The position numbers were made by a program, and so were the translations under genes. Of a DNA stretch of 64,000 nucleotides, positions 5,294 to 25,637 are shown piece by piece. The notes beneath the pieces are model-generated. The model saw only the letters and a program-made list of their open reading frames with translations. It did not search any database and had not been told where the DNA came from. Every line of letters starts with the position of its first letter. Positions within the stretch are counted from its first letter, which is position 1. Source of the DNA: Pacificibacter marinus (GTDB lineage: Bacteria; Pseudomonadota; Alphaproteobacteria; Rhodobacterales; Rhodobacteraceae); the NCBI RefSeq assembly GCF_018860505.1, contig NZ_JAHKPU010000026.1, positions 1-64,000 of the forward strand. The letters run 5' to 3'.

Positions 5294-6088
5294 ATGTCCA
5301 CACAAGATACACTTGCCAGCCTTGCCTCCAGCCTTCTGGACGGATCCATTAAAGTCGTCGACTGCACGGCCCCATTGGGCCCAGATACACCACTTTTGAA
5401 ACTGCCCCCCGAATTGGCCGATGACACGCCAAAGATCGAAATCCACGAAATTTCAAAATACGGCGATCGCGGTCCGTTTTGGGCTTGGAATTGGCTAAAG
5501 CTGGGCGAACACTCCGGCACGCATTACGATGCGCCACATCACTGGATCACGGGCAAAGATTTTCCTGACGGCTCTGTCGACACCATCGCGCCGCAAAATT
5601 TTGTCGCCCCAGCCAATGTTATTGACTGCACGAAAGAATCCGCAGCCGATCCCGATTTCTTGCTGACACCTGAGCATATCAAAGCATGGGAAGCCGAGCA
5701 CGGCGAGATCAAAGAAGGCGAATGGGTGCTGATGCGTACGGATTGGGACCAGTACAACACCGATGCAGACAAGTTTCTGAATGCGGATGAAACAGGCCCT
5801 CACACCCCCGGACCAAATGCCGAAGCCATCATTTATTTGATGGAAGAGAAAAAAGCACTGGGCTGGGGCACGCAGTGCATTGGCACGGATGCAGGCGCGG
5901 CTGGGGGCTTTGAAATTCCCTTTCCTGCCCACAACCTTTTGCACAAACACAATCGCTACGGCCTTGCTTCACTGACCAACCTCAGCGCCCTGCCCGCTAA
6001 AGGCGCTATCCTTGTGACAGCACCGCTTAAAATTGTGAACGGCACAGGTTCACCCATCCGTGCACTCGCGCTTATTCCCACAACATAA
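5294..6088 (+). CDS. Isatin hydrolase (cyclase family, metal-dependent)
   Basis: 264 aa cyclase-family hydrolase. The metal motif HSGTHYDAPHH gives His73, His77, Asp79 and His82/His83. GPFWAWNWL just upstream, ITGKDF after it, and SPIRALAL near the end match my recollection of the Labrenzia isatin hydrolases, which open the amide ring of isatin to isatinate (2-aminophenylglyoxylate) with Mn. Kynurenine formamidase belongs to the same superfamily and is the main alternative. Good RBS (GGGAG) ahead of the ATG. It leads an operon that continues with a flavoprotein, MarR and the IorA/IorB-like pair. Isatinate is a 2-oxoacid, so the downstream oxidoreductase is a natural next step. Confidence 0.8.
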   Translation: MSTQDTLASLASSLLDGSIKVVDCTAPLGPDTPLLKLPPELADDTPKIEIHEISKYGDRGPFWAWNWLKLGEHSGTHYDAPHHWITGKDFPDGSVDTIAPQNFVAPANVIDCTKESAADPDFLLTPEHIKAWEAEHGEIKEGEWVLMRTDWDQYNTDADKFLNADETGPHTPGPNAEAIIYLMEEKKALGWGTQCIGTDAGAAGGFEIPFPAHNLLHKHNRYGLASLTNLSALPAKGAILVTAPLKIVNGTGSPIRALALIPTT

Positions 6089-6106
6089 ACTGACGAGCGT
6101 AGCACC

Positions 6107-7672
6107 ATGACAGCACCGATAGATATTGCCATTATTGGCAGCGGGATCAATTCCTTAGCGGCAGGCGCACTGCTGTCTAAATCAGGCAAAAAGGTTGCAC
6201 TGTTTGAACGAGAGACCGTTGCGGGTGGGTGCGTGCGCTCTGAAACACTGGCCGAGGGGGTCACTTATGATCCCCTTGCCACCACATTTGTTCTTTGGGT
6301 CACGGGCGGCGCCCATGCGGAACTTGGCGCAGATCTGGCGCGCCACGGGGTCGAGTTTTGCGCCACAAGCACGCCAACGGGAGTGTTGCTCCCTGATGGC
6401 CGCGCCCTGACCTACAAAACCGATCGCGCAGCAAATATCGCGGCGTTTGATGCGGCAAATGCGGGAGACGGACAACAACTGTCTGCCGATTTGGACGCAT
6501 TTGGCGCGGATGCAGAGCTGTTGTTTGGCCTTATGGGCGGCGACCCATGGTCAAAATCAACCCTAAAACTGTTGGGCAAAGAAGCGTGGAAACGCAAACC
6601 CCGCGGCCTAGCCACAACAATGGGCGGTGCATTGCAGTCCATGCGCGGATGGCTTGAAACATCTTTTGAAAGCGACCTGACCCGTGCGCTTTGGGCACCG
6701 TGGTGTCTTCACGCTGGCCTTGCCCCCGAAGCAGCATTTTCGGGGCAAATGGGTCAAGTCATTGGTTTCGCACTAGAGGCGGCAAGCGCGCCCATCGTCA
6801 AAGGCGGCGCTGCAAATATGGTACGCGGCCTGATCGCCATTATCGAAGAAAACGGCGGAACGATCCACACGTCAACCGAAGTGTCTGAGGTGATGGTGCG
6901 TAACGGAAAAGCCGAGGGGTTAAAGCTTGCCAGCGGCGAAACGATTAAGGCTGGCAAAGTACTGGCATCGGTCACGCCAAACCAATTGTATGAAACACTC
7001 GCCCCCACCCCGACAAAACAAAACGATCTGCGTAAATATCGTTATGGTAATGGAAATTTCCAACTTCATTACCTTTTAGACGGGCCTGTGAAATGGAAAA
7101 CTGAAGGGTTAGAGGACGTGCAGTTGTTGCACCTCACCTCTGGACTAGACGGCGTGTCGAAAGCTGGCAACGAAGCCGAGCGCGGCATGCTACCCGATCA
7201 ACCAACCATCTGCGTCGGCCAACCCTGCGCCGCTGATCCAACACGCGCCCCAGAAGGCAAAACCGTCTTATGGCTGCAAATGCCCGAGGCCCCCCGCCAC
7301 ATCAAAGGCGATGCGCGCAACGAAATTGAAGCACCCGCAGACGGCCAATGGTCTGAGTCCATTCGCGAGGCCTATGCAGACCGTGTTGAGGCGATTTTAG
7401 CGCAACACATCGAAGGTTTCACAGACCAAATCGTGACCCGCCGCGCAATATCGCCCGCTGACTTGCAGGGCTATAATATGAACCTTGTCGGCGGCGATCC
7501 TTATGGCGGTGCCTGCTCAATCGAACAATTCTTTGCGTGGCGCCCCTTTAGCGACACAGTGCGCCACGAGACAGGCATCAAAAACCTCTATCACATCGGC
7601 GCGTCAACACACCCCGGCCCAGGGCTGTCTGGCGGATCAGGGTTTCTCGCGGCCAAGGAGTTGGGCGCATGA
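6107..7672 (+). CDS. FAD-dependent oxidoreductase, phytoene desaturase-like (first copy)
   Basis: 521 aa. N-terminal dinucleotide-binding motif IIGSGINSLAAG (residues 9-20), acidic residue in LFERE at the end of beta-2, and a C-terminal FAD motif near HIGASTHPGPGLSGGSG. The whole length resembles phytoene desaturase/carotenoid isomerase-type flavoproteins of the amine-oxidase superfamily, but no carotenoid genes are nearby. A paralogue of almost equal length lies at 11874-13418, so the pair flanks the IorA/IorB-like genes. Possible roles are oxidation of indoxyl or 3-hydroxyindolin-2-one to isatin, or electron transfer with the oxidoreductase. Both are inference. Its stop overlaps the next ATG. 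Confidence 0.8.
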   Translation: MTAPIDIAIIGSGINSLAAGALLSKSGKKVALFERETVAGGCVRSETLAEGVTYDPLATTFVLWVTGGAHAELGADLARHGVEFCATSTPTGVLLPDGRALTYKTDRAANIAAFDAANAGDGQQLSADLDAFGADAELLFGLMGGDPWSKSTLKLLGKEAWKRKPRGLATTMGGALQSMRGWLETSFESDLTRALWAPWCLHAGLAPEAAFSGQMGQVIGFALEAASAPIVKGGAANMVRGLIAIIEENGGTIHTSTEVSEVMVRNGKAEGLKLASGETIKAGKVLASVTPNQLYETLAPTPTKQNDLRKYRYGNGNFQLHYLLDGPVKWKTEGLEDVQLLHLTSGLDGVSKAGNEAERGMLPDQPTICVGQPCAADPTRAPEGKTVLWLQMPEAPRHIKGDARNEIEAPADGQWSESIREAYADRVEAILAQHIEGFTDQIVTRRAISPADLQGYNMNLVGGDPYGGACSIEQFFAWRPFSDTVRHETGIKNLYHIGASTHPGPGLSGGSGFLAAKELGA

Positions 7673-8115
7673 GCAACCATACTGAAGACCTAGAAGAGTT
7701 CACGCCCTACCTCATGAACAGGATTATGGCCCGCTACAACAAAGGTGTCGAGGCAGCGCTCAAAGGCGTCGGCGTATCCGTCGCGCAAATGCGTGCGCTG
7801 GTTGTGCTTGTCGATCACAGCCCCTGCACAATATCCGAACTGTCGGTGCTCACCGTCATCAAACAACCCACGCTGTCACGTACATTGGACGCGATGGAAG
7901 CTGCCGGTTTGATAAAACGAGAAGCCCGCGATGGCGACAGCAGGGTGCGTTTGATCAGCCTCAGCGACACTGGCCGCGCCGCTTATGAAACGGCATGGCC
8001 TGCCATGTTGGGCATGCGCGACACCATGCTGTCATCCTTATCCGCAGACGAGCGCGCAACGTTTAACCAACTGTTGCAGCGCATCTTTTACGACATTCGC
8101 CACCACGATTTTTAA
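7669..8115 (+). CDS. MarR-family transcriptional regulator 2
   Basis: 148 aa. Winged helix around residues 38-105, with TISELSVLTVIKQPTLSRTLDAME as helices 3-4 and RDGDSRVRLISLSDTGR as the wing. Start overlaps the previous stop (ATGA), so it is co-translated with the flavoprotein and embedded in the isatin operon. That placement argues for autoregulation of this operon. Only moderately similar by eye to the MarR at 2306, so the two probably see different ligands or promoters. Confidence 0.9.
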   Translation: MSNHTEDLEEFTPYLMNRIMARYNKGVEAALKGVGVSVAQMRALVVLVDHSPCTISELSVLTVIKQPTLSRTLDAMEAAGLIKREARDGDSRVRLISLSDTGRAAYETAWPAMLGMRDTMLSSLSADERATFNQLLQRIFYDIRHHDF

Positions 8116-8163
8116 TCAAAATCTGTGCTGGAACACTAGAACCACCCAATAAGGAGAGCGCAA

Positions 8164-10308
8164 ATGGCCGAAAGATCATTCGCTAAGGAAGTTCAAAAAC
8201 TCAAACAAGGTGAAGGGGATATTTTCGCCGGTGAAGGCATTCTTGCCATCACAAAAGCGCTCTTGGAAAATGGGGTGGGCTATGTCGGGGGCTATCAAGG
8301 CTCGCCTATTTCACACTTGATGGATGTGCTGGCCGACGCGCAAGAGATTTTGGGCGATCTGGGCGTGCATTTTGAAGCCTCCGCAAGCGAGGCCACGGCC
8401 ACGGCCATGCTCGCCGCCTCTGTCCATTATCCCATTCGCGGCGCGGTGACGTATAAATCTGTCGTGGGCACCAATGTCGCCTCGGATGCGCTGTCCAACC
8501 TTGCCTCTGGCGGAGTGACGGGGGGCGCGTTGATTATCGTCGGCGAAGATTACGGCGAAGGGTCATCGATCATGCAAGAGCGCACCTATGCGTTTGCGAT
8601 GAAATCACAGGTCTGGATGCTGGACCCTCGGCCGAACTTGCCCGCAATTGTAAAAGCAGTTGGCGACGGGTTTGAATTGTCCGAAGTGTCAAACACGCCT
8701 GTCATGTTGCAGATGGGCATTCGGTCTTGTCACGTTCACGGACAATTCCCAGCCGCAGACAACAAACGCCCCGCCATGACAGTCAGCGACGCGCTGGAAA
8801 ACCCTGCGCGCGACCTGAACCGTATTGTTCTGCCCCCAGCGACCTATCTGCATGAAGAAGAAAAGCTCACCAAACGCCTGCCTGCTGCGAAAAACTTTAT
8901 CTTAGAGAAAGAAATCAACGAACGCTTTGGCAAAGCTGGTTCAAAGGTTGGATTGATCGTACAGGGCGGCACCTATAACACCCTCATTCGCGCGCTGAAC
9001 CGCCTCGGGCTGGCTGATATTTATGGCCAAACGGATATGGATATGCTGGTTCTCAACTGCGTTTACCCGCTGGTTGATAGCCAAATCACAGAGTTCTGCG
9101 AAGGCAAGGATGCGGTTCTTATTGTTGAGGAAGGTCAGCCAAATTACATCGAGCAGCAGATCGGGCATATCCTTTATAAAGCAGGGAAATCCGTCAAACT
9201 GGAGGGCAAAGGTCACCTGCCGATGGGCGGTGAATATACAGGTCAGGTTATGGTTGATGGCATTGGCGCGTTTTTGACCGCGCACGCCCCAAGCTTGCTG
9301 CCTGTCGCAAAAACGGCCGGCAACGAACAAGCTGTCGCCATCCCCGATCTGTCAAAAAACTTGCCCGCACGCCCACCAGGGTTTTGCACAGGCTGCCCTG
9401 AACGCCCTATTTTTGCGGCAACGAAACTGGTCGAAGAAGAATTGGGCGAACACCACATTTCCTCTGACATCGGGTGCCACCTGTTCTCGATCATGCCGCC
9501 CTTCAATCTGGGCTCGACAACAATGGGCTACGGCCTTGGACCAGCATCCGCAGCCGCGTTTCACAATGAAAACGAAGGTGGGCGTAGATCCATTTCCTTT
9601 GTTGGCGATGGTGGGTTTTGGCACAACGGTCTGACCAGCTCAATCGGGAACGCGGTGTTTAATAAATCCGACAATGTGATCGTGATCGTCGATAACTTCT
9701 ATTCCGCCGCCACAGGTGGGCAAGACAACCTGTCCTCGCGGGCCAATAATAAAACCAAGCAAACCCAGAATTCCATCGTCGACGCCTGTAAGGGCATTGG
9801 CGTGAAATGGATCCGTCACATCGACCACACCTATGACGTGACCAAAGTCCGCGATACATTGAAAGAAGCGCTCACGACCGAAGAAACCGGCCCAAAGGTC
9901 ATTGTTGCTTCCTCGGAATGCATGCTGAACAAACAGCGCCGCGTGAAACCCGAATTGGCCAAAGCCGCCAAAGACGGCAAACGCGTTGTGCGCCCCCGTT
10001 TCGGCGTTGACGAAGACATTTGCACCGGCGATCACGCCTGTATGCGTCTGTCGGGCTGTCCATCGCTTTCCGTCAAAGACACAGGCGATCCCTTGCGTGA
10101 TGATCCCGTCGCCGCCATCGACCAAACCTGTGTGGGCTGCGGCAACTGCGGCGAAGTGGCAGACGCGGCCGTGCTATGTCCGTCTTTCTTCCAAGCAGAA
10201 ATCGTTTCAAACCCAAGCGCATCTGAACAAAGACGCGCGAAACGAAGCCAAAAAATCATCTCTTGGCTACAAAGCCGCCGCGACGCCAAACGCGTTGCAT
10301 TTGCCTAA
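8164..10308 (+). CDS. 2-Oxoacid:ferredoxin oxidoreductase, IorA-like (TPP and Fe-S) subunit
   Basis: 714 aa, the layout of indolepyruvate ferredoxin oxidoreductase alpha: a pyruvate-ferredoxin-type pyrimidine domain at the N terminus (GGYQGSPISH near 40), a core with CTGCPERP around 405, the TPP-binding GDGGFWHNG near 479 with DNFYSAATGG near 507, and a C-terminal ferredoxin part with cysteines at about 619-635 and CVGCGNCGEVADA near 656. The first cluster motif is unusual (C-x5-C-x5-C). IorA enzymes oxidatively decarboxylate aryl-2-oxoacids to aryl-CoA, reducing ferredoxin. Placed two genes after isatin hydrolase, the attractive substrate is isatinate, giving 2-aminobenzoyl-CoA; this is inference. 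Strong RBS AAGGAG. Confidence 0.85.
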   Translation: MAERSFAKEVQKLKQGEGDIFAGEGILAITKALLENGVGYVGGYQGSPISHLMDVLADAQEILGDLGVHFEASASEATATAMLAASVHYPIRGAVTYKSVVGTNVASDALSNLASGGVTGGALIIVGEDYGEGSSIMQERTYAFAMKSQVWMLDPRPNLPAIVKAVGDGFELSEVSNTPVMLQMGIRSCHVHGQFPAADNKRPAMTVSDALENPARDLNRIVLPPATYLHEEEKLTKRLPAAKNFILEKEINERFGKAGSKVGLIVQGGTYNTLIRALNRLGLADIYGQTDMDMLVLNCVYPLVDSQITEFCEGKDAVLIVEEGQPNYIEQQIGHILYKAGKSVKLEGKGHLPMGGEYTGQVMVDGIGAFLTAHAPSLLPVAKTAGNEQAVAIPDLSKNLPARPPGFCTGCPERPIFAATKLVEEELGEHHISSDIGCHLFSIMPPFNLGSTTMGYGLGPASAAAFHNENEGGRRSISFVGDGGFWHNGLTSSIGNAVFNKSDNVIVIVDNFYSAATGGQDNLSSRANNKTKQTQNSIVDACKGIGVKWIRHIDHTYDVTKVRDTLKEALTTEETGPKVIVASSECMLNKQRRVKPELAKAAKDGKRVVRPRFGVDEDICTGDHACMRLSGCPSLSVKDTGDPLRDDPVAAIDQTCVGCGNCGEVADAAVLCPSFFQAEIVSNPSASEQRRAKRSQKIISWLQSRRDAKRVAFA

Positions 10309-10319
10309 GGACCAAAATC

Positions 10320-11870
10320 ATGAACATGCAAGCAGCCCCTATCATCGCACGCCGTTCGCCCGGGCCTGACGGAGAAAAAATCATCACCCTTGCCGCCCTT
10401 GCGGTGGGGGGCCAAGGCGGCGGCGTATTGACGAACTGGATCGTCGCAGTGGCCGAAGCCAACGGATACCGCGCCCAATCCACATCTGTTGCGGGTGTGG
10501 CGCAGCGGACAGGCGCGACGATTTATTACGTCGAAATGTGCCGCGATACAGGCCGCACACCTGTGTTTTCGCTGTCTCCATCCATTGGCGATGTCGATAT
10601 TTTAATGGCCTCCGAATTGATGGAGGGCGGACGCGCCATTATGCGCGGCTTCGTCACACCGGGTCGCACAACGTTGATCGCCTCTACCCACCGTATCCCG
10701 GCTGTGTCGGAAAAAATCCACGCAGGCGATGGCCGCGTCGACGGCGCAGAAGTGATCGAAGCAATGGGCATCGCCGCAGATCACGTCGTTGCGTTTGATA
10801 TGGAAACGGTCGCCAAAGCGGCAGGATCGGTTATTTCATCGTCTCTATTGGGGGCACTTGCAGGCTCTGGCTCCCTGCCCTTTTCACGTGAAAGCTTCGA
10901 AGATGTCATTCGCGCGTCAGGGCGCGGCGTCGACGCCAGCCTGCGCGCATTCGGTGATGCCTATGACATTGCCAAAGGCGACAAAGCAGCGCCCACTGTC
11001 GAAGATGCGCCTGCGGTCATTCTGCCTGTTCTAAATGTGCCGAAAAATCTGAAATCGAAATGGACGGCCTTAGAGGTCCGCATCGCCAACCTGCCGCAAG
11101 AAACCCATGAGATGGTCGGCTTGGGTCTGCAAAAAGTCGTCGATTATCAAGACATCGACTACGGCGCAGATTATCTAGATATGGTCGAACAAATCGCCGC
11201 TCTTGATGTGGCGCCTTTTGATCTGAGCATTTGTGCCGCCAAATACTATGCGCGCGCTCTGTGCTACGACGATATCCTGCGCGTGGCCGATATCAAAACC
11301 CGTGCCTCGCGTATGGAGCGGGTCAAAAACGAGGTCGTTGTGAAAGACGATCAACTTTTGATGGTCACCGAATATTTTCACCCGCGTTTCGAAGAGTTCA
11401 CCACCACATTACCCACCAGCATCGGACGCTGGCTGCAAAGACGTAAAGGGCTTGAGGCTTTCTACACCAAGCATTTTGACAAAGGCCGCCGCGTGCGCAC
11501 CGATAGTCTAAGCGGTTTTCTTATGCTGTGGATCGTGTCATCTCTGCGCCCCTACCGCCGCAAATTGCTGCGCCATAAAAGCGAAATGGACCATGTCGAT
11601 ACGTGGTTCAAAACGGTGCTTTCAGTGGCAAAAGACAATCCTGCAATGGCCATAGAAATCCTGACAAACTACCGCCTGATTAAAGGCTATTCCGACACCC
11701 ATGTGCGCGGACATTCCAAATTTGCCCGCGTCATGGGCGCATTGGATATGCTCGTAGGCCGCAGCGATGGAGCAGATTGGATGCGCCGCCTGCGTGTGGC
11801 GGCTCTTGATGATGTCAAGGGCGATGCATTGGACGGCGCGCTTGAAACTGTCAAAAGCTTTGCGAGGTAG
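10320..11870 (+). CDS. IorB-like gamma subunit with C-terminal DUF6537-type extension
   Basis: I choose the ATG at 10320, 11 bases after the iorA-like stop; an earlier in-frame start at 10263 would overlap that gene. 516 aa. Residues about 20-200 are the pyruvate:ferredoxin oxidoreductase gamma domain (AVGGQGGGVLTNW, then SVAGVAQRTGATIYYVE). The remaining 300 residues form the helical extension seen in long IorB proteins of aerobic Proteobacteria. It is the partner of the preceding subunit. The extension may replace the usual ferredoxin or link to another electron acceptor; its function is unknown. Confidence 0.85.
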   Translation: MNMQAAPIIARRSPGPDGEKIITLAALAVGGQGGGVLTNWIVAVAEANGYRAQSTSVAGVAQRTGATIYYVEMCRDTGRTPVFSLSPSIGDVDILMASELMEGGRAIMRGFVTPGRTTLIASTHRIPAVSEKIHAGDGRVDGAEVIEAMGIAADHVVAFDMETVAKAAGSVISSSLLGALAGSGSLPFSRESFEDVIRASGRGVDASLRAFGDAYDIAKGDKAAPTVEDAPAVILPVLNVPKNLKSKWTALEVRIANLPQETHEMVGLGLQKVVDYQDIDYGADYLDMVEQIAALDVAPFDLSICAAKYYARALCYDDILRVADIKTRASRMERVKNEVVVKDDQLLMVTEYFHPRFEEFTTTLPTSIGRWLQRRKGLEAFYTKHFDKGRRVRTDSLSGFLMLWIVSSLRPYRRKLLRHKSEMDHVDTWFKTVLSVAKDNPAMAIEILTNYRLIKGYSDTHVRGHSKFARVMGALDMLVGRSDGADWMRRLRVAALDDVKGDALDGALETVKSFAR

Positions 11871-11873
11871 GCC

Positions 11874-13418
11874 ATGACCGAACCTGTTGTAATCATTGGC
11901 GCTGGGATCAACGGGTTGGTGGCGGCCGCGGATTTGGCCGCGCGCGGCACACCCGTGCGGGTGCTGGAACGCGGCCCAACCGCTGGTGGCGCGGTGCGCA
12001 CTGAAGAGTTGACGAAAAAAGGGTTTCGCCACGATATCGCCGCGATGAACCTATCGATGTTCGCAGGGTCGCAATTCATGGCCCGTCACGGCGAAGAAAT
12101 GGCACGACACGGGTTCGCGTTAGTCCCTATCAGCCACCCGTTCGCCCAAGCCCTAGAGCCGGGCGACCATATCGGCGTAACAACCGACCTTGAAGAAACT
12201 CTCAGCAGCTTTTCCAACGAGGCCGACAAAGAGACTTGGCGTAATTTGATGGCTGAATTTCCAGAACGCGCTGGCGTGGTTGGCGGATTGTTGGGAACTC
12301 CGATGCGACGTTGGCCATTGGCAAAGTTTCTGTGGAAAACCTGGCGCTCTCTTGGCACATCCAAAGCCATTGAAGTTGCCCAGTTTTTGATAAGCTCTCC
12401 GCGCGATTGGCTGGACAACACCTTTGAAGATCCCCGCTTGCGCACAGCCCTGTCCACATGGGGAATGCACCTTGATTTCGCCCCCGATATCGCAGGCGGT
12501 GCGATCTTCCCCTATCTCGAGGCAATGGGGGGGCAAGCTATGGGAATGGTTATCGGCAAAGGCGGTGCAGATAGCGCCACGCGCGCGCTGGTTTCGATGA
12601 TTGAATCTCACGGCGGGCAGATTGAATGCAACACCGAAGTCACACGTATTTGCCACACAAACGGGAAAGTTACCGGCGTTGAGGCGAATGGGAAAATAAT
12701 TGATACTTCAATTATACTTGCTGGGCTGGCGCCCAAACACCTATCGCGTCTGGCGGGCCCAACCGCCGATACGCGTTTTGATAAAGGCATGGAAAAGTTC
12801 CGCCATGCACCGGGAACAATGATGTTGCATCTTGCCCTTGATGCCCCAGTGCCGTGGCTGGCAGAACCGCTTAAGGAATTTGCCTATGTCCACATTGGGC
12901 GGTCCATTGACACCGCGTCCCAGACCTATGCGCAAGCTGTTGCAGGGTTGCTGCCTGAAACGCCTTTGCTTGTCGTGGGACAACCCACCCTATTTGATCC
13001 CACTCGCGCGCCCGAGGGAAAACACACCCTATGGGTGCAGGCCCGCGTTGTGCCTGCCGCTATAAAAGGTGATGCAAAAGGTGAAATACTTCATAAAAAT
13101 TGGGATAATGCGAAAGAACCAATGTCGGAGCGCGTGCTGGATTTGATCGAAGAGCAAGCCCCTGGATTCCGAGCCACCATTCTTGCACAGCACGTCGTAT
13201 CCCCTGAGGATTTAGAGGCAGACAATCCCAACCTTGTGGGCGGCGATCAGATTTGCGGGTCACATCACTTGACCCAAAACTTTTTATTCCGTCCGTTGCG
13301 CGGCTTTGCCGATGGGCACACACCAATCAAAGGCCTGCATTTGATTGGCGCTGCGACGTGGCCCGGCGCGGGCACGGGGGCCGCGTCAGGTTTTTTTGCT
13401 GCACAAACAATCAAATAG
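11874..13418 (+). CDS. FAD-dependent oxidoreductase, phytoene desaturase-like (second copy)
   Basis: 514 aa. FAD-binding IIGAGINGLVAA at residues 6-17, RVLERGPTAGGAVRTE at beta-2, and a C-terminal GAATWPGAGTGAASG motif. Same architecture as the protein at 6107-7672, including the shared segment DPTRAPEGK before the last third and the NLVGGD motif. Starts three bases after the IorB-like stop, so it is in the same operon. Two paralogues around one oxidoreductase suggest either sequential oxidation steps or a heterodimer. No direct substrate evidence. Confidence 0.8.
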   Translation: MTEPVVIIGAGINGLVAAADLAARGTPVRVLERGPTAGGAVRTEELTKKGFRHDIAAMNLSMFAGSQFMARHGEEMARHGFALVPISHPFAQALEPGDHIGVTTDLEETLSSFSNEADKETWRNLMAEFPERAGVVGGLLGTPMRRWPLAKFLWKTWRSLGTSKAIEVAQFLISSPRDWLDNTFEDPRLRTALSTWGMHLDFAPDIAGGAIFPYLEAMGGQAMGMVIGKGGADSATRALVSMIESHGGQIECNTEVTRICHTNGKVTGVEANGKIIDTSIILAGLAPKHLSRLAGPTADTRFDKGMEKFRHAPGTMMLHLALDAPVPWLAEPLKEFAYVHIGRSIDTASQTYAQAVAGLLPETPLLVVGQPTLFDPTRAPEGKHTLWVQARVVPAAIKGDAKGEILHKNWDNAKEPMSERVLDLIEEQAPGFRATILAQHVVSPEDLEADNPNLVGGDQICGSHHLTQNFLFRPLRGFADGHTPIKGLHLIGAATWPGAGTGAASGFFAAQTIK

Positions 13419-13535
13419 CAAAAGACGATCACTCCGCACACAGTTTTTACTTTATATTTGAAATAATATCCATAAAGTGACTCTATAAAACGAACTCGGA
13501 AACCGAGCCTTACCCTCTCAACAGGAGTATACAAG

Positions 13536-15074: not shown

Positions 15075-15089
15075 TTTCATTAGGCAAAA

Positions 15090-15118
15090 CCTCGGACTGA
15101 GCGTCCTGCAGTCCGAGG
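15090..15118 (+). other. Stem-loop between binding-protein and permease genes
   Basis: Perfect 10-bp stem CCTCGGACTG (15090-15099) / CAGTCCGAGG (15109-15118), 9-nt loop, with no T tract. Typical of hairpins that protect the abundant binding-protein mRNA and lower expression of the membrane components. Confidence 0.55.
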
Positions 15119-15139
15119 CCAAAACTCAGAAAGATTACT

Positions 15140-17893: not shown

Positions 17894-18717
17894 CCGACGT
17901 GATGACACCCCCACAACCTGCGTTGTTTTCAATCAAGGGTCTGCACCTGTCGTTCCCTGATCGCGCGCATAGGCCACTGTTTGGTGCAGCTCCGCGCATT
18001 GAAGTCCTGAAAGGCCTCACGCTTGACCTGCCCGAAGGACGCATCACAGGCATTGTCGGGGAAAGCGGGTCAGGAAAATCGACTCTTGGCCGTGTATTGG
18101 TACGCCTTCTAGCGCCTGACGCAGGCCAAGTTACTTTTGACGGAAAAGATATTGGTGCGTTAGATGAAGATGCGCTGCGTCCGCTGCGCCGCGATCTGCA
18201 AATGATTTTCCAAGACCCGATGTCATCGCTGAATCCGCGTCACAAAGTCTGGCGTATCATCGCGCAACCGATGAAGCGGTATCGCCGCGGTGGCACCCGC
18301 GCGGATGCATTGAAAGCCTTGGAAAAGGTCGGACTGCCTGAATCCTTTGCCGATCGCTATCCGCATGAATTGTCGGGCGGACAGCGGCAACGCGTTGGTA
18401 TCGCTCGCGCAATCGCATTGGAGCCCCGCTTTATTTTGGCCGATGAAATTGTATCTGGGCTAGATGTGTCAAGTCAGGCGCAGGTTCTGTCGTTGCTGAA
18501 AACACTGGCCAAAGACATGGGGCTGACCGTTGCGTTTATCAGTCACGATCTATCGGTGATCCGTCATTTATGCGATGATGTCATTGTTTTGAACCACGGT
18601 GAAATCGTAGACAGCGGGCCTGTGCAAACCGTTTTTGAGCACCCAAAATCAGACATCACCAAGGCCTTGCTTGGCGCGATCCCGCGTCCTGAAATAGATG
18701 ATAGCTGGTTCGAATAA
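17890..18717 (+). CDS. ABC transporter ATP-binding protein, DppF type
   Basis: 275 aa. Walker A GESGSGKS near 57, Q-loop IFQDPMSSLNPR near 110 (the NPR triplet is a dipeptide/oligopeptide ATPase trait), signature LSGGQRQR near 161, Walker B FILADE and H-loop SHD near 218. Fifth and last gene of the importer operon. An early insertion of about 15 residues around PDRAHRPLFGAAPR precedes the usual nucleotide-binding core. Confidence 0.9.
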   Translation: MTDVMTPPQPALFSIKGLHLSFPDRAHRPLFGAAPRIEVLKGLTLDLPEGRITGIVGESGSGKSTLGRVLVRLLAPDAGQVTFDGKDIGALDEDALRPLRRDLQMIFQDPMSSLNPRHKVWRIIAQPMKRYRRGGTRADALKALEKVGLPESFADRYPHELSGGQRQRVGIARAIALEPRFILADEIVSGLDVSSQAQVLSLLKTLAKDMGLTVAFISHDLSVIRHLCDDVIVLNHGEIVDSGPVQTVFEHPKSDITKALLGAIPRPEIDDSWFE

Positions 18718-18774: not shown

Positions 18775-19194
18775 TCATTTGGCCAATTCAGGGTGCAAAT
18801 ATTTCTCAAGCCCCGCACGGCAATCATCCGGCCATGGGTGTGACTTATGATCCTTGGTCGAGGTCATCACAATCAACTGCTCGATCGTCCAGATCACATC
18901 GCCATCCACAGTCACCACAGTGTAAAGATCAAGCGAAGATTTTCCGATTTTGCGCACATGCACATTGAATTCAAGCAGATCGCCATAAACGGCAGGTTTT
19001 TTGAATTCGATGTTCATTTTGACACTCGGCAACCCCAGATGACGCTCAAACATGAGCTCTTTCCATGGCACGCCAAAAGACGCGAACATTGCCTCGTTTA
19101 CATCGACAAGATAGGATAAATAAGCAGGGTGATACGCGATGCCTGTAAGGTCGCAATCGCCAAAACGCATTGGTTTGGTCATCGTAAAGGGCAT
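18775..19194 (-). CDS. Hotdog acyl-CoA thioesterase, 4HBT type
   Basis: 139 aa single hotdog domain. The motif GDCDLTGIAYHPAYLSY at about 13-29 corresponds to the 4-hydroxybenzoyl-CoA thioesterase active site, with the Asp in the DxxGI pattern. RBS GAGAGGAAA ahead of the ATG. Divergent from the monooxygenase operon across a 373-bp control region, so it probably serves the same CoA pathway, hydrolysing an aryl- or ring-derived CoA ester and recycling CoA. It is the first of three thioesterase-like genes within 5 kb. Confidence 0.85.
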   Translation of the reverse strand: MPFTMTKPMRFGDCDLTGIAYHPAYLSYLVDVNEAMFASFGVPWKELMFERHLGLPSVKMNIEFKKPAVYGDLLEFNVHVRKIGKSSLDLYTVVTVDGDVIWTIEQLIVMTSTKDHKSHPWPDDCRAGLEKYLHPELAK

Positions 19195-19567: not shown

Positions 19568-21850
19568 ATGAAGATAGCAGTTCTTGGCGGCGGACCATCT
19601 GGCTTATATTTTGCGATCTCGATGAAGCTTCGCGATGCGGCCCATGACATCACCATTTACGAGCGCAATCGCTTTGATGATACATTTGGCTGGGGCGTTG
19701 TTTTGTCCGATGAAACGATGTCGAACTTTGAAGAAAACGACCCCATCAGCGAAAAAATGATCCGCGACAACTTCGCCTATTGGGATGATGTAAAAACCGT
19801 ACGCGGTGATGAAGAAATGACATCAAGCGGTCACGGGTTTTGTGGGATCGGGCGTAAGGTATTGCTTATTGCTTTACAGGATCGCGCACGTGATCTGGGC
19901 GTCAATCTGGCCTTTGAAACCGACTTGACGGATGAAAAAATTGCCGAATTGAAACAAACCAATGACCTTGTTGTGGCGGCAGACGGGCTGAATTCCAAGA
20001 CTCGCACGATCTATCAAGATAAATTCAAACCCGAAATTGACATGCGCCAAAATCACTTTGTCTGGCTTGGCACGCATCAAAAATTCGACGACGCCTTCAC
20101 TTTTATCTTTGAAAAAACCGAGCACGGCTGGATCTGGGCTCATGCCTACCAGTTCGATGACGATACAGCGACTTTCATCGTAGAATGCGGGCCTGAAACC
20201 TATAAAGCATTCGGATTTGACACTTTAAATCAACAAGATAGCATCGCACTTTGCGAAAAAATATTCGCCAAGCACCTTGGCGGGCACCCCTTGATGACAA
20301 ACGCCACCCACATTCGCGGCTCTGCTTGGATTCAATTCCCGCGCGTGACCTGTGAAAACTGGCATTTTGAAAATGTCGTACTGCTGGGTGATGCATCGGC
20401 CACGGCGCATTTCTCAATCGGGTCAGGGTCCAAATTGGGCATGGAAAGCGCGATTGCCCTTGCGGATGTGTTGAACGCTGGCAAGCCGTTGCAAGACGCT
20501 TTGCAAACCTACCAAGATGAACGCAAATTGCAGGTGCTGCGCGTGACCTCTGCGGCACGCAATTCAACCGAGTGGTTTGAAGATATCGAACGCTACCTGA
20601 CCCTTGACATGATGCAGTTCAGCTATGCTTTGCTGACGCGGTCTCAACGGATCAGCCATGAAAACCTGCGCTTGCGCGATCCTGAGTGGATGGCCAAGGC
20701 TGAAGCATGGTTCCAGAAAAAAGCGGGCGGCACAGCTGGTCGCAGCCCCATGTTCGCCCCTTACAAATTGCGTGATATGACACTGCAAAACCGTGTCGTC
20801 GTCTCGCCCATGGCGCAATACAAAGCCACCGATGGCACTCCAAACGATTGGCATTTTGTACATTACGCCGAACGCGCCAAAGGCGGCGCGGGCCTTGTGT
20901 TCACTGAAATGCTATGTGTGTCAAAAGAAGGCCGCATCACCCCCGGCTGCCCTTGTATTAGCGAGGATCAAGTCCCCGCGTGGTCACGCTTGACCGATTT
21001 TGTACACGCAGAGACACCTGCGAAAATCTGTGCGCAGATTGGTCATGCAGGGCGCAAAGGCTCTACGCGTTTGGCATGGGATGGCATCGACAAACCTTTG
21101 GCCGAAGGCAATTGGGATCTTTTGTCTGCATCAGCCATCCCCTTAATGGATGGCAACGTTGTGCCAAAATCAATGGATCGCGCAGATATGGACATGGTGA
21201 AAGACCAGTTCATTGCATCCGTTAAAGCCGCTGACAAAGCTGGGTTTGACATGATCGAAATGCACGCAGCCCACGGCTATTTGCTGGCCTCTTTCATCTC
21301 GCCAGTCACCAACAAGCGCAGCGATGAATATGGCGGATCAGTGGAAAACCGTATGCGCTATCCGTTGGAAATTTTTCACGCGATGCGCGCGGAATGGCCC
21401 GAGAGCAAACCGATGACAGTGCGTATTTCCGCACATGATTGGATGGGCGACGCGGGCGTCAATCCTGAAGATGCGGTTGCCATCGCGCAAATGTTCAAAG
21501 ATGCGGGTGCGGATGCGATCAACGTGTCATCGGGACAGACCGACAAAGGCGAGCAACCGATTTATGGCCGTATGTTCCAAGTGCCGTTCTCTGACCGTGT
21601 GCGCAATGAATTGGCTGTGCCGACTTTGGTCGCTGGCAATATTTATGAACCGGATCATGTCAACTCTACGCTGATGGCGGGGCGTGCGGATCTTGTCTTG
21701 CTGGCGCGTCCACATCTTGCAGATCCATATTGGACCCTGCATGCGGCGGTAGAGCTGGGCGACACAGCTCAAGACTGGCCGGCCCCCTATGAAGGCGGTC
21801 GTCGTCAAGCTATTACATTGGCCGAACGTGAAAAGGCTATGGCGGTATGA
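19568..21850 (+). CDS. 2-Aminobenzoyl-CoA monooxygenase/reductase-like fusion (salicylyl-CoA 5-hydroxylase type)
   Basis: 760 aa, two enzymes in one chain. Residues 1-390 are a PHBH-type FAD monooxygenase: GGGPSG at 8-13 and the second FAD motif LLGDASATAHFSIGSG near 275. Residues 395-760 are an Old Yellow Enzyme: APYKLRDM, MHAAHGYLLASF near 565 and SDEYGGSVENR. This fusion is known from Azoarcus 2-aminobenzoyl-CoA monooxygenase/reductase, which hydroxylates then reduces the ring of anthraniloyl-CoA, and from proteins annotated as bifunctional salicylyl-CoA 5-hydroxylase. The isatin genes upstream favour 2-aminobenzoyl-CoA here. No CoA ligase gene is in the window. First of five tightly overlapping genes. 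Confidence 0.85.
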   Translation: MKIAVLGGGPSGLYFAISMKLRDAAHDITIYERNRFDDTFGWGVVLSDETMSNFEENDPISEKMIRDNFAYWDDVKTVRGDEEMTSSGHGFCGIGRKVLLIALQDRARDLGVNLAFETDLTDEKIAELKQTNDLVVAADGLNSKTRTIYQDKFKPEIDMRQNHFVWLGTHQKFDDAFTFIFEKTEHGWIWAHAYQFDDDTATFIVECGPETYKAFGFDTLNQQDSIALCEKIFAKHLGGHPLMTNATHIRGSAWIQFPRVTCENWHFENVVLLGDASATAHFSIGSGSKLGMESAIALADVLNAGKPLQDALQTYQDERKLQVLRVTSAARNSTEWFEDIERYLTLDMMQFSYALLTRSQRISHENLRLRDPEWMAKAEAWFQKKAGGTAGRSPMFAPYKLRDMTLQNRVVVSPMAQYKATDGTPNDWHFVHYAERAKGGAGLVFTEMLCVSKEGRITPGCPCISEDQVPAWSRLTDFVHAETPAKICAQIGHAGRKGSTRLAWDGIDKPLAEGNWDLLSASAIPLMDGNVVPKSMDRADMDMVKDQFIASVKAADKAGFDMIEMHAAHGYLLASFISPVTNKRSDEYGGSVENRMRYPLEIFHAMRAEWPESKPMTVRISAHDWMGDAGVNPEDAVAIAQMFKDAGADAINVSSGQTDKGEQPIYGRMFQVPFSDRVRNELAVPTLVAGNIYEPDHVNSTLMAGRADLVLLARPHLADPYWTLHAAVELGDTAQDWPAPYEGGRRQAITLAEREKAMAV

Positions 21851-22590
21851 GTTTGATCGGAAAAACGGCCTTTGTAACAGGTGGCGGGTCTGGTGTGGGG
21901 GCGGTTATCGCCCTGCAACTGGCCGAAGCTGGCGCGCAGGTCACGATTTGCGGACGGCGCTTGACCCCGTTGCAGGCAGTTGCTGCGCAGCATGAAAACA
22001 TCACCGCCACTGTCGCAGACATCACTGACGAGGCAGCCATATCAGCAGCCATATCAGCAGCCGCCCCCGATATTGTTGTAGCCAATGCGGGCGCATCTGA
22101 AAGCGCGCCTTTTGTCAAAACCGAACTTGAAGCCTTTGAACGGATCATGTCGGTCAACGTCACGGGGACGTTTTTGACGTTGCGTGAGGGTGCGAAGGCA
22201 ATGAAAGAAAAGCCTTGGGGCCGATTGATCGCCATAGCATCCACGGCAGGCATCAAAGGCTACCCTTATGTGGCGCCTTATGCGGCCGCCAAACATGGTG
22301 TGGTCGGCATGGTCAAATCCGTGGCCCTTGAACTGGCCCGCAAAGGCATCACTGTGAACGCCATCTGCCCAGGTTTTCTAGACACTGAAATGACCGAACG
22401 TTCTATCGCCAATATTGTGGAAAAAACTGGCCGCACAGCGCAAGAAGCCCGTGCAAGCCTAGAGGCCACAAATCCCATGCACCGCCTCGTACCGCCACAA
22501 GATGTGGCTGCGGCTGTGCTTTGGTTATGTGCTGAAGGGTCAGACATGGTCACAGGTCAAAGCATTTCTGTGTCTGGCGGTGAAACATGA
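21847..22590 (+). CDS. SDR-family 3-hydroxyacyl-CoA/alcohol dehydrogenase-like protein
   Basis: 247 aa. TGGGSGVG at about 10-17, NAGAS near 80, and catalytic Ser-Tyr-Lys seen as STAGIKGYPYVAPYAAAKH around 140-158. ATGA overlap with the fusion monooxygenase upstream and with the thioesterase downstream. By position it should oxidise or reduce the alicyclic CoA ester made by the monooxygenase/reductase, in a beta-oxidation-like step. That is inference. Confidence 0.85.
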   Translation: MSLIGKTAFVTGGGSGVGAVIALQLAEAGAQVTICGRRLTPLQAVAAQHENITATVADITDEAAISAAISAAAPDIVVANAGASESAPFVKTELEAFERIMSVNVTGTFLTLREGAKAMKEKPWGRLIAIASTAGIKGYPYVAPYAAAKHGVVGMVKSVALELARKGITVNAICPGFLDTEMTERSIANIVEKTGRTAQEARASLEATNPMHRLVPPQDVAAAVLWLCAEGSDMVTGQSISVSGGET

Positions 22591-23030
22591 GCAAGGTTTT
22601 CACACACAAACGTCAGGTTGAATTCAACCATTGCGACCCCGCAGGAATCGTTTTCTACCCTCGCTATTTTGAAATGATCTCCTCAGTCTGCGAGCGTTTT
22701 TTTTCTGACGCCATCGATTTCAGCTGGGCCAGCACAGTCATGAAACAGGGCTACGGCACCCCGATGGGCAATATCGAGGTCCGCTTTCACGCGGCCTCAC
22801 GCCTTGAGGATTGGCTTGATTTTTCGCTCTGCGTCGAAAAAATCGGAAACGCCTCGGTTACCTTTGTCATCACATGTTCTTGCGCGGGCGAGCCCCGCTT
22901 TACATGCACAGCGACGCTTATCTACGCAAATATTGCCACCAACACATCCCATCCATGGCCAGACGCCCCGCGTGCTGCAATGCAACACTACATCACCCCT
23001 TCCCTAGATGAAAAGAAAGTCACCTTATGA
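22587..23030 (+). CDS. Hotdog acyl-CoA thioesterase, 4-hydroxybenzoyl-CoA thioesterase-like
   Basis: 147 aa. FNHCDPAGIVFYPRYFEM near residues 13-30 is the canonical 4HBT active-site segment, with the catalytic Asp in CDPAG. Overlaps both neighbours by four bases. Likely releases a free acid from an aromatic or alicyclic CoA ester formed by the first two operon genes. It is only distantly similar by eye to the thioesterase at 18775, so they probably act on different intermediates. Confidence 0.85.
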   Translation: MSKVFTHKRQVEFNHCDPAGIVFYPRYFEMISSVCERFFSDAIDFSWASTVMKQGYGTPMGNIEVRFHAASRLEDWLDFSLCVEKIGNASVTFVITCSCAGEPRFTCTATLIYANIATNTSHPWPDAPRAAMQHYITPSLDEKKVTL

Positions 23031-23440
23031 GCGCCCTGACGCCCCACAGTTTTCTTCAGCCAGATGGTTGGATCCCTGCAAAAGGCTACGCCAACGGTGT
23101 ATTGGCCGAAGGAAAGATGATTTTCACAGGCGGCTTGGTCGGCTGGAATGCGCAACAAGAATGGCAACACCACGATATGGTTGGTCAGTTTCGCCAGACG
23201 CTGGAAAACATCGTCGCAGTCTTGGAAACGGCAGGTGCCACCCCTCAACATCTCGTGCGTTTGACATGGTACATTACTGATAAAAAAGAATATAATGACA
23301 ACCTACGGGCTTTCGGCGCTGCCTACCGCGACATCATTGGCAAACATTTCCCTGCGATGGCTGTCGTTCAGGTTGTGGCCTTGATGGAAGACGAGGCGAA
23401 AATCGAAATCGAGGCAACGGCAGTCATTCCTCATGACTGA
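23027..23440 (+). CDS. RidA/YjgF-family protein lacking the catalytic arginine
   Basis: 137 aa RidA fold: FTGGLVGWN near 33, LENIVAVLETAGATPQHLVRLT near 59-80 and KIEIEATAVI at the end. Canonical RidA enzymes deaminate enamines/imines using an Arg in a PAR motif; here the segment reads FPAMAVVQVV, with Met in place of Arg. Such Arg-less members form other Rid subfamilies with unknown or non-deaminase roles. An enamine intermediate is expected from a 2-aminobenzoyl-CoA reductase, so the family fits the pathway, but the missing residue means the chemistry may differ. ATGA overlaps on both sides. Confidence 0.8.
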   Translation: MSALTPHSFLQPDGWIPAKGYANGVLAEGKMIFTGGLVGWNAQQEWQHHDMVGQFRQTLENIVAVLETAGATPQHLVRLTWYITDKKEYNDNLRAFGAAYRDIIGKHFPAMAVVQVVALMEDEAKIEIEATAVIPHD

Positions 23441-23807
23441 TATATCGCTCCCCAAAGGCCAGCCCGTTTTGATCACAACAGCCCCCTATAGCGAGGCAAC
23501 TCCGCGCGGCGCGGTGACTGGCGCGTGGATCATGGGGCAACTCGACATTGCAGCGGGCCTTGCAGGTCAGCACGCCAGCGGCGGTGACGCGCTTATGGTG
23601 TCGATCAAAGACCTGACATTCCACGCCCCGCTGCTTGCAGGTGTAGAATTTGCTGTGCATGCAACATTGACGCGCACAGGCAATACATCCTTCGACCTTT
23701 CGTTTTCAGGATGGGCAAACCCCAAAACCACCTGCACGCAGATCTTTAGCGCAGATGTCTTGCTTGTCGCAGTTGATGCCGAAGGGAAGCCTCGCAAAAT
23801 CGCTTGA
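23433..23807 (+). CDS. YciA-like hotdog acyl-CoA thioesterase
   Basis: 124 aa. ATPRGAVTGAWIMGQLDIAAG near residues 22-42 matches the acyl-CoA hydrolase (YciA/BFIT) pattern, with the catalytic Asp in QLD. Shorter than typical YciA (about 130-150 aa). Last gene of the monooxygenase operon, overlapping the RidA-like gene by eight bases and followed by a terminator. It may act as general CoA-ester release or act on a short-chain product. Confidence 0.7.
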   Translation: MTDISLPKGQPVLITTAPYSEATPRGAVTGAWIMGQLDIAAGLAGQHASGGDALMVSIKDLTFHAPLLAGVEFAVHATLTRTGNTSFDLSFSGWANPKTTCTQIFSADVLLVAVDAEGKPRKIA

Positions 23808-23878
23808 TGAATTTTCCGACCCCATTGGCTCACAGACTGCCGCGCAAATCCTTCCCGTTATCGCTATAAAAAACCAAC

Positions 23879-23904: not shown

Positions 23905-23920
23905 TCTGGAATGCCCTCTC

Positions 23921-24406
23921 TCAGACAGCTTCTAAACGTCTGAAATGAGACTGCGCATAAAGCAAGGCATCCCCCTCGCGCAGCGCCGCATCCTTTATAG
24001 CCCCGATAAAGACCACATGGCTGCCGTTCTCGCTTGATGATGTGACCTCACAAGACAGGCTCGCCAACGCTGCCTTAAGACGCGGCAGTCCCGCAGCGCA
24101 AGCGGTCCAGTCTGCGGGCGTGAATTTATCGGCCCCCGTTTCGCCTGTCACACCAGCAAAACAAAGCGCCACATCACAATGGTCATTATCTAAAAGCTGC
24201 ACAGAAAATTTCCCCGAACGCTCGATCTCCTGACATGTTCCGGTTTTGCGATTAACACAGACAAGGATCGACGGCGGGCTGTCTGTGACCGAACACACCG
24301 CCGTCGCCGTGATCCCACGCCTCAGCGTATCTTTTCCTGTGGTGATCAGCGTCACAGCACTTGGGAAAAGCCCCATGGCCTGACGAAATGTCGCGATATC
24401 CACCAT
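23921..24406 (-). CDS. Flavin reductase (StyB/IifD-like)
   Basis: 161 aa from the ATG at 24406; upstream extension into the monooxygenase gene is not credible. Flavin-reductase fold: FRQAMGLFPSAVTLITT near 7-23, ITATAVCSVTDSPPSILVCVN near 32-52, and FSVQLL. It reduces FAD or FMN with NAD(P)H and passes it to the partner monooxygenase. It starts one base after the StyA-like stop, the usual pairing in two-component styrene/indole monooxygenases. Confidence 0.85.
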   Translation of the reverse strand: MVDIATFRQAMGLFPSAVTLITTGKDTLRRGITATAVCSVTDSPPSILVCVNRKTGTCQEIERSGKFSVQLLDNDHCDVALCFAGVTGETGADKFTPADWTACAAGLPRLKAALASLSCEVTSSSENGSHVVFIGAIKDAALREGDALLYAQSHFRRLEAV

Positions 24407-24407
24407 A

Positions 24408-25637
24408 TCACGCCGCCTGAAGGCTGGTGAGATACTCTTGCGCCGCCGCTTCATCAGCGAACCACGGAAAGAAATCACGCGGATCGTCAAACCCGTTGGC
24501 AAGGCGTTGTGCGAGCCCCGGCAAAACCTGCGCGGAGCCCATGATGTCCAGCACAAAGGGGGGCGGCGGCAAGAGCATCATATTGGTCCAACGCACAACC
24601 CATTGCGCATAGTCCCAGAAGTGTTCAAAGGTCGCGACCATCCAATCCTCGTCAAACGGCTTATCACCCTGTGCAAGAATGGCGTCAAAATAAACTGCTG
24701 CCGCCTTCGCTGCGTTGTTCGCGCCCTGCCCCGTGATCGGGTCATTGAGACATACAGCATCGCCAAGCCCCAAAACCTTTGCCCCAGATGGCAAGGTCGC
24801 GACGGGTTTGCGTACCGTCGGGGGGAAACGACCAGCAAGAATACCGTTCTCATCAGTCAACTCGACATTGCCACACCGGTCATATTCCCAAGGCAAGTAG
24901 GTCTTAAGAATGCTCAGCGAGGTCTCAAGATGTGCCTCAGGCGTGGTCGCATCTTTCCAACAATCCATAGGGCCGCCCTGCACCCCCTCGAACACCATAA
25001 TATCGCAGGGGCCGGTTTTGGTCAGCGCAGGGAAAACGAAGTATTCGCCAACACCAGGGATAAGGTTAAAATTCACCGCCGAAAAATTCTCGCGCGGCGT
25101 CATGCCATGAACATAGGTCAACGCCAGCGCACGCTGTGGCGTATCAAACGGCGAACGCTCTGCATCGCGTTCAAAGAGTTTTCCGATCTCTCCCTTGCCA
25201 GAGGCGACAATCACCAGATCAGCAGTTTTAGATTCCTGTTCCAGCATGGCAATATCGGCAGACGCAATCACCAGATCGCCGCCCAGACGGCTGAATTCCT
25301 CAAGCCAGCGCGGCATTTTCACCCTCTGGTCGACCGATTGACCTTTGGCATCAAGCCGTGAAGACCATTCCAGCGCCTTGCCCGCGCCTTCGGGGGCCGG
25401 CACGGTGAAAGAAATCCCTTCAACCGGTGGGCAGGCCTTTTCCCAAAAATTGATGCCGAGGGCGCGTTCGTGGTCTAGGGATGCGTCGAATTGGCATTGC
25501 GACGAGAGAACCCGTCCCGCAGCAATCTGGTCGCCGGTGCGGTCCTGAATAATCTTAACGTCATAGCCCTTTTGCAAAAGGCCAATAGCAAGTTGCAGGC
25601 CCGACTGACCCCCACCGATGATGGTGATACGTTTCAT
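24408..25637 (-). CDS. StyA/IifC-like flavoprotein monooxygenase (indole or styrene type)
   Basis: 409 aa, the normal size for StyA. FAD-binding GGGQSGLQLA at 8-17, then a second motif in LGLGDAVCLNDPITGQGANNA near 296. This E-type monooxygenase has no NADH domain and needs the adjacent reductase. Family members epoxidise styrene or indole. The order regulator-AraC, SDR, StyA-like, reductase matches the indole-degrading iif cluster of Acinetobacter as I know it, so indole 2,3-epoxidation is the preferred guess. The substrate is not proven by sequence. Confidence 0.85.
   Translation of the reverse strand: MKRITIIGGGQSGLQLAIGLLQKGYDVKIIQDRTGDQIAAGRVLSSQCQFDASLDHERALGINFWEKACPPVEGISFTVPAPEGAGKALEWSSRLDAKGQSVDQRVKMPRWLEEFSRLGGDLVIASADIAMLEQESKTADLVIVASGKGEIGKLFERDAERSPFDTPQRALALTYVHGMTPRENFSAVNFNLIPGVGEYFVFPALTKTGPCDIMVFEGVQGGPMDCWKDATTPEAHLETSLSILKTYLPWEYDRCGNVELTDENGILAGRFPPTVRKPVATLPSGAKVLGLGDAVCLNDPITGQGANNAAKAAAVYFDAILAQGDKPFDEDWMVATFEHFWDYAQWVVRWTNMMLLPPPPFVLDIMGSAQVLPGLAQRLANGFDDPRDFFPWFADEAAAQEYLTSLQAA

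Follow-up and report, generated by a model that had tools for sequence, protein, structure and literature searches.

A Pacificibacter marinus gene cluster for indole and isatin degradation with a predicted direct step from isatinate to 2-aminobenzoyl-CoA

The window analyzed here is a 64,000-nucleotide stretch of Pacificibacter marinus DNA (contig NZ_JAHKPU010000026.1) that carries genes for an isatin hydrolase (IH), an IorA/IorB-type oxidoreductase (IorAB) and a fusion enzyme of the 2-aminobenzoyl-CoA monooxygenase/reductase type (ACMR). The host genome (G000) is a 3.65-Mb draft in 51 contigs that is 96.67% complete, and the closest named locus found was that of P. marinus F2R14 (L008; IorB, 99%). 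A plus-strand run at 5294-18717 encodes IH, a flavoprotein (FAD1), a MarR regulator, IorA, IorB, a second flavoprotein (FAD2) and a five-gene ABC transporter, with gaps that are short or replaced by overlaps. A second run, at 19568-23807, encodes ACMR, a short-chain dehydrogenase/reductase (SDR), a thioesterase, RidA and another thioesterase, and a minus-strand run at 26459-23921 encodes an SDR, a StyA-type monooxygenase and a flavin reductase, with an AraC regulator divergent from it. The features are as follows.

5294-6088, plus: isatin hydrolase (IH-B type), predicted to convert isatin to isatinate (phmmer against 4j0n; PF04199, 120.8 bits; H73/H77/D79 motif)
6107-7672, plus: FAD1, a CrtO-like NAD(P)/FAD oxidoreductase (family scans)
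7669-8115, plus: MarR-family regulator (presumed role) inside the IH-IorAB operon (PF12802, 50 bits)
8164-10308, plus: IorA-type thiamine diphosphate (ThDP)/Fe-S subunit, proposed alpha subunit of an isatinate:CoA oxidoreductase (TIGR03336, 300.8 bits; cysteines and GDGGFWHNG)
10320-11870, plus: IorB-type subunit with DUF6537, proposed beta subunit of the same enzyme (NF006179, 657.6 bits; PF01558 and PF20169); the start is a presumed one, at an in-frame ATG at about 10320 of the open reading frame 10263-11870
11874-13418, plus: FAD2, a second CrtO-like flavoprotein (family scans)
13536-18717, plus: oligopeptide-type ABC transporter, comprising a binding protein, two permeases and two ATPases (first two genes by scan, the rest from translation)
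18775-19194, minus: 4HBT thioesterase (PF13279)
19568-21850, plus: ACMR (NF006101, 1208.8 bits)
21847-23807, plus: SDR, thioesterase, RidA and second thioesterase, overlapping ACMR and downstream of it (family scans)
23921-24406, minus: flavin reductase that presumably serves the monooxygenase (family scans)
24408-25637, minus: indole-monooxygenase-type flavoprotein of the StyA family (594 bits against 7z4x)
25683-26459, minus: SDR, putative indole-dihydrodiol dehydrogenase (NF006121, 383.6 bits)
26588-27604, plus: AraC-family regulator, weakly AndR-like (NF041686, 150.6 bits, under the cut-off of 350)
2820-4952, minus: SDR, FAH-family hydrolase and small cupin-like gene, divergent from IH (translations and family scans)

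A preliminary description of this DNA had named the isatin hydrolase, IorA/IorB, the ACMR fusion, a StyA/reductase/SDR module and MarR and AraC regulators within about 22 kb. Family scans and solved-structure matches bore out these genes, and only the position of the AraC gene needed correction, as it lies just past the end of that interval; the MarR gene lies inside it. The two CrtO-like flavoproteins and the five-gene transporter of the operon, as well as the SDR/thioesterase/RidA genes, had gone unmentioned.

The identity of each enzyme was then considered. The best solved relative of the window IH was isatin hydrolase B (4j0n; phmmer E value of 1.3e-125 over residues 1-263, full length), and its His/His/Asp metal motif (H73, H77, and D79) aligned with that of the solved chains; passages of PMC6117287 give the metal ligands of isatin hydrolase. 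The extra metal-binding Gln219 of LaIHA is Ala both in the window IH and in 4j0n, which places the window protein outside the IH-A type. The window IH is close to characterized isatin hydrolases and is predicted to hydrolyze isatin. The StyA-type monooxygenase scored 594 bits against solved chain 7z4x, which we take to be the indole monooxygenase VpIndA1 (the listing gives just putative flavoprotein), and 134 bits against the styrene monooxygenase StyA (3ihm). An iif-type set of indole-type StyA, flavin reductase and SDR is present in the window, and SDR adjoins StyA also in L026 and in Azospirillum L216. In the latter, a relative of FAD1 (57%) is placed between the StyA/indole monooxygenase genes and IH; speculatively, FAD1 and FAD2 may oxidize dioxindole to isatin.

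ACMR passed NF006101 (1208.8 bits; cut-off, 1078), a model named for salicylyl-CoA 5-hydroxylase. That name, together with a transporter and two flavoproteins that have no assigned role, would suit another ring-opened substrate, such as an isatin bearing a halogen or hydroxyl group, or an O-analogue that would give salicylyl-CoA, in which case the chemistry would be the same and the natural compound would not be indole. The much closer match of the monooxygenase to 7z4x than to StyA, and of IH to characterized isatin hydrolases, makes this quite improbable.

IorA and IorB fell short of the indolepyruvate oxidoreductase equivalogs TIGR03336 (300.8 bits against a cut-off of 650.9) and TIGR03334 (46.7 bits against 205.8), but IorB passed the subfamily NF006179 (657.6 bits; cut-off, 348). 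Below, IorA at 60% identity or more is termed clade A, and a sister IorA clade at 52-56% identity is termed clade B. The seven C-terminal Fe-S cysteines of IorA (C620, C626, C632, C656, C659, C662, and C672) were conserved in 90/90 clade-A rows, and the ThDP motif GDGGFWHNG was present in each clade-A row of the sample displayed. No sequence match to IorA was found among solved structures, and its predicted structure was poor (mean predicted local distance difference test score of 60). Annotation names and the weak TIGR03336 and TIGR03334 matches would point to an ordinary indolepyruvate/arylpyruvate oxidoreductase for aromatic amino acids that stands in the cluster by coincidence. However, both equivalog cut-offs were missed, and such an enzyme would not be predicted to follow IH nearly one to one over 248 genera, as described below; we consider this explanation highly improbable.

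Taken together, the genes suggest a cluster for aerobic indole and isatin degradation in which, as the preliminary description had proposed, IorAB would convert isatinate and CoA directly to 2-aminobenzoyl-CoA, bypassing free anthranilate. We give this reading a probability of about 0.7; it is supported by comparative genomics, namely, the co-occurrence of IH, IorA and ACMR and the lack of any ligase found. Indole would be oxidized toward 3-hydroxyindolin-2-one and isatin by the StyA-type monooxygenase, working with its reductase, and by the SDR, and FAD1/FAD2 may carry out the last oxidation. The isatin hydrolase would open isatin to isatinate (2-aminophenylglyoxylate, a 2-oxo acid), and IorAB, acting on thiamine diphosphate, would convert isatinate, CoA and 2 oxidized ferredoxins to 2-aminobenzoyl-CoA, CO2 and 2 reduced ferredoxins. 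ACMR would take the 2-aminobenzoyl-CoA thioester directly. Each of these reactions, the electron acceptor included, is predicted from observed gene content, conservation, co-occurrence and the absence of a ligase orthologue.

Conservation of the locus was examined in 18 loci found by an IorB search in named genomes. IH, IorA and IorB occurred together in 17, among them Streptomyces L025, where they are merely 23 to 30% identical; IH was undetected in L024. The order IH-FAD1-MarR-IorA-IorB-FAD2-ABC was kept in 12/18 loci at about 70 to 100% identity, which argues that the arrangement is more than chance. Pseudovibrio L018 encodes ACMR, SDR, RidA, IH, MarR, IorA and IorB; nothing there matched the flavoproteins or the transporter. 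ACMR was present in 16/16 further genomes, which were picked by IorB and hence are not a random sample. Some loci link the IH-IorAB pair to StyA and others link it to Rieske iad genes, so the pair appears to be the shared part. CrtO-like flavoproteins, often paired, accompany many IH-IorAB loci, including that of Tsukamurella (examples are L216, 7323-8903, and L208, 17902-21074), and an ABC transporter adjoins FAD2 in 12/18 loci of the IorB search and in 23/53 clade-A loci.

The comparison of co-occurrence that the preliminary description had suggested for the three gene families was run on 248 genomes of the family, each from another genus. Clade-A IorA was found in 52, ACMR in 86 and IH in 50. 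All 50 IH genomes held clade-A IorA, and IorA without IH occurred solely in G155 and G229 (Fisher p of 1.5e-50). The two genes lie within 20 kb of each other in 41/50 genomes and farther apart or on different contigs in nine. ACMR was present in 48/52 IorA genomes versus 38/196 others (p of 8e-23; 2e-22 without the window genome). The association was not seen with clade B: in the fetched regions, IH was near clade-B IorA in 0/11 loci and near clade-A IorA in 38/53, and the seven genomes with clade-B IorA only were not among the 50 IH genomes. In a tree of 106 of 107 rows, built by a quick method without bootstrap and with one long-branch warning (L023), clade B was split from the rest at an SH-aLRT support of 100, and StyA and iad contexts were scattered within the rest.

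Similar counts were obtained more widely. In a sample of 329 genomes of the phylum, several of which share a genus, IorA (at least 60%) and IH were each found in 20 and both in 18, with IorA alone in G517 and G282; ACMR was present in 19/20 IorA genomes versus 30/309 others. Among plasmid records, many of them near copies (e.g., from Sulfitobacter), 57 held IH, 46 held IorA (at least 60%) and 40 held both. In the actinomycete Tsukamurella, IH adjoins IorA-IorB in a cluster with ACMR, FAH, cupin, RidA, two flavoproteins, SDR and an AMP-binding protein. Since the IH-IorAB pair is constant while upstream and downstream genes vary, and since the thioester-using ACMR goes along with it, we propose IorAB for the step from isatinate to 2-aminobenzoyl-CoA.

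Next, the routes open to free anthranilate in the host genome were considered. A PF00501 scan of G000 returned six proteins, none on the window contig, in keeping with the earlier claim that the stretch has no CoA ligase. A malonyl-CoA synthase and a PRK07529 protein were over their cut-offs, a propionate-CoA-ligase-like protein was below and a short PRK07638-like protein far below; a fifth, short protein had no match at 1e-40, and BLAST was the only comparison made for the sixth (L005). No aminobenzoate-type CoA ligase orthologue was found in G000, where CoA transferases were not searched. The ACMR-associated ligase of relatives is benzoate-CoA-ligase-like and just below cut-off (365.5 versus 375.25), and the best G000 protein matched it at 30% identity over its length and 35% over a part. 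Of three Rieske alpha proteins in G000 (two scanned whole and one partly), none was near anthranilate dioxygenase cut-offs: L205, and L206 in part, had glycine betaine monooxygenase as their best model but stayed under its cut-off, and L207 was 31% identical to IadD, so that no IadDE-type Rieske oxygenase of the iad locus was found in G000. Because neither an aminobenzoate-type ligase nor a near-cut-off Rieske protein was found, free anthranilate would seem to be a dead end in G000. A Rieske oxygenase alpha gene is located in the window itself (40911-42359, minus strand; benzoate dioxygenase, 196 of 781 bits), with a 2-oxoglutarate-Fe(II) oxygenase and an ABC permease nearby.

Relatives were searched for the ligase in a set of 18 genomes, comprising G000, G239 and the 16 genomes behind the loci. 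An orthologue at 69% or more was found in eight (G239, G254, and G256 to G261), and G262 held one at 50%. The remaining nine (G000, G248 to G253, G255, and the metagenome-assembled genome G263) had generic matches only, at about 36% or less, and all nine hold IH, IorAB and ACMR; near-identity between G248 and the window, and between G249 and G250, means that these represent fewer than nine independent lineages. In the family sample, the orthologue was missing from four of 86 ACMR genomes: the IorA-positive G000, G138 and G102 and the IorA-negative G212 (62% complete). Two of these absences may be gaps: less than 10 kb separates ACMR from the contig end in G138, and the G102 assembly is split into 870 contigs. 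The usual family ACMR operon includes enoyl-CoA hydratase, acyl-CoA dehydrogenase and ligase genes, none of which is present in the window cluster; the lower pathway of the window cluster probably differs from that usual in the family.

Several observations weigh against a direct isatinate-to-thioester step. The ligase is kept in 45/48 family genomes with IorA and ACMR, and the idea that ligase and IorAB strictly alternate was rejected (three of the four ligase-less ACMR genomes are IorA positive; p of 0.63). Judged from gene content, the term ligase-free, as used in the preliminary description, is valid for G000 and a few relatives but not as a general rule. IH occurs without IorA in phylum genomes G579, whose locus has ligase, MarR, IH and ACMR without IorAB, and G493, and 17/57 IH plasmid records have no IorA on the same record. 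Conversely, six plasmid records hold IorA without IH, the fetched regions of 15/53 clade-A loci (some on short contigs) showed no IH, and ACMR is missing from the IorA- and IH-containing genomes G014, G028, and G201 (also ligase-less) and G108 (ligase present). The co-occurrence statistics, moreover, ignore genome size, phylogeny and joint transfer. Finally, according to passages of PMC12633357, the nine-gene region iadC-K2, which by its name and gene order excludes iadA and iadB, restores anthranilate in a locus-deleted strain, which means that isatinate has a way to anthranilate that does not need IadAB.

Nine of the 17 IH-only plasmid records were examined; the remaining eight come from Roseibium or Labrenzia. 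Five of the nine loci (L210, L211, L212, L214, and L217) encode another ThDP enzyme, which adjoins IH or, in L211, lies about 4 kb away. The three that were scanned (546 to 548 residues) were under every cut-off shown, with sulfoacetaldehyde acetyltransferase, 5-guanidino-2-oxopentanoate decarboxylase and acetolactate synthase as best models. The other four loci, which also count against the proposal, lack this enzyme as well: L216 has SDR, StyA, flavin reductase, FAD oxidoreductase and IH, with IorAB on the sister plasmid of the same strain, L209 and L215 have iad-type genes with neither IorA nor another ThDP enzyme, and L218 has IH only. The other ThDP enzyme occurred in 0/128 collected loci with an IorA match (many of which overlap or are near copies). 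The ThDP enzyme that goes with IH is in most cases IorAB and, in some loci, one of another kind. As a separate observation, the conjugative plasmid of Variovorax sp. PBS-H4 from linuron-contaminated soil (L031) carries IorA without IH between two IS1071 transposase genes, with no IorB annotated beside it.

These loci bear on an alternative in which isatinate goes to free anthranilate, by nonoxidative decarboxylation to 2-aminobenzaldehyde and oxidation or by IorAB plus a thioesterase, followed by activation or dioxygenation as in known indole degraders. A CoA ligase lies near IH and the other ThDP enzyme in Deinococcus psychrotolerans and Rhodococcus erythropolis, and clusters of this kind would suit a route that yields the aldehyde by decarboxylation, then oxidizes it and ligates the product to CoA. 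A thioesterase gene follows iorB in Ruegeria, Caballeronia and Shinella, and most IorA genomes retain the ligase. In passages of the literature, anthranilate is the reported product of known indole and iad pathways, and passages of PMC12633357 describe C7H7NO (the formula of aminobenzaldehyde) and anthranilate as formed without iadAB. For G000, however, the ligase and Rieske searches described above speak against this route, which we consider unlikely.

For direct conversion by IorAB, a wider claim can be made, to which we lean only slightly: clade-A IorAB would be a widespread isatinate:CoA oxidoreductase at which the aerobic breakdown of indole and that of auxin meet, in Pseudomonadota as well as in at least one actinomycete. 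The enzyme would supply the missing IadA/IadB function, the reported anthranilate would be a side product, and in other bacteria a single-chain ThDP decarboxylase together with a CoA ligase would take its place. In passages of PMC12633357, strong accumulation of C8H7NO3 (which matches isatinic acid in formula) and of C7H7NO is confined to strains overexpressing iadC-K2. Such C8H7NO3 buildup, which counts in favor of the direct step from isatinate, is what lack of an isatinate-consuming enzyme would give, a reading made here and not by the authors in those passages. If the proposal is correct, the aminobenzoyl-CoA pathway would have a ligase-free entry that saves the ATP of ligation and gains reduced ferredoxin, one activity would answer both the place of isatin in indole degradation and the reaction of IadA/IadB, and the standing of anthranilate as an end product in plant bacteria that degrade auxin would be reread.

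Genes flanking the cluster were also surveyed. The SDR/FAH hydrolase/cupin group at 2820-4952, in which the small cupin-like gene had no NCBIfam match, may encode lower-pathway functions; it lies beside IH in 10/18 loci, and FAH and cupin relatives are present in the Tsukamurella cluster as well. The IorAB loci of Caballeronia, Shinella and Ruegeria pomeroyi include a large cupin, an FAH hydrolase, a carbon-nitrogen hydrolase and an Asp/Glu racemase (L032, 18733-22700; L033, 7908-11784; L030, 8084-11965), a set that would fit gentisate-like ring cleavage of 5-hydroxyanthranilate to maleamate and maleate. Elsewhere in the window, 28731-38166 holds two TRAP large permeases, a TRAP binding protein, an M20 peptidase and a dihydroorotate-dehydrogenase-like gene, and creatininase-like and amidohydrolase genes lie further along, at 49305-51436.

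The preliminary description knew of no pathway with the joining step from isatinate to 2-aminobenzoyl-CoA, and a literature search, with most subscription journals outside its coverage, found no title or abstract opening that gives it; the IH-IorAB pair itself, which that description did not mention as known, is already present in published iad loci. In passages of PMC9613470 and PMC12633357, the auxin (indole-3-acetic acid [IAA]) iad locus of Variovorax and Bradyrhizobium resembles the window in its iorA/iorB homologues iadA/iadB, its MarR regulators and its cyclase-family IadI, annotated as kynurenine formamidase. Passages of PMC9613470 name iadA/iadB as iotA/iorB markers and report isatin, isatinic acid and anthranilate in Variovorax. 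Unlike the window, the iad locus starts from IAA with the Rieske enzyme IadCDE and has anthranilate as its reported end product, and the passages of both papers give no reaction to iadA/iadB. The iif and ipo-dho indole clusters, as described in passages of PMC12538310 and PMC6221969, share with the window an indole oxygenase and reductase, a short-chain dehydrogenase and an AraC regulator but lead to anthranilate via a cofactor-independent oxygenase, with isatin a suggested dead end; the review passages of PMC6221969 ask whether isatin belongs to indole degradation. The ligase-type 2-aminobenzoyl-CoA pathway uses the same ring-attacking fusion enzyme but is entered by an ATP-dependent ligase, whereas the window has no ligase, enoyl-CoA hydratase or acyl-CoA dehydrogenase of the kind seen in most family ACMR loci. 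A chemical precedent is phenylglyoxylate:acceptor oxidoreductase of anaerobes, which converts an aryl-glyoxylate and CoA to aroyl-CoA and CO2 and differs in subunit makeup and in its anaerobic setting. The proposed scheme is a variant within the known kinds of aromatic degradation and not a new class.

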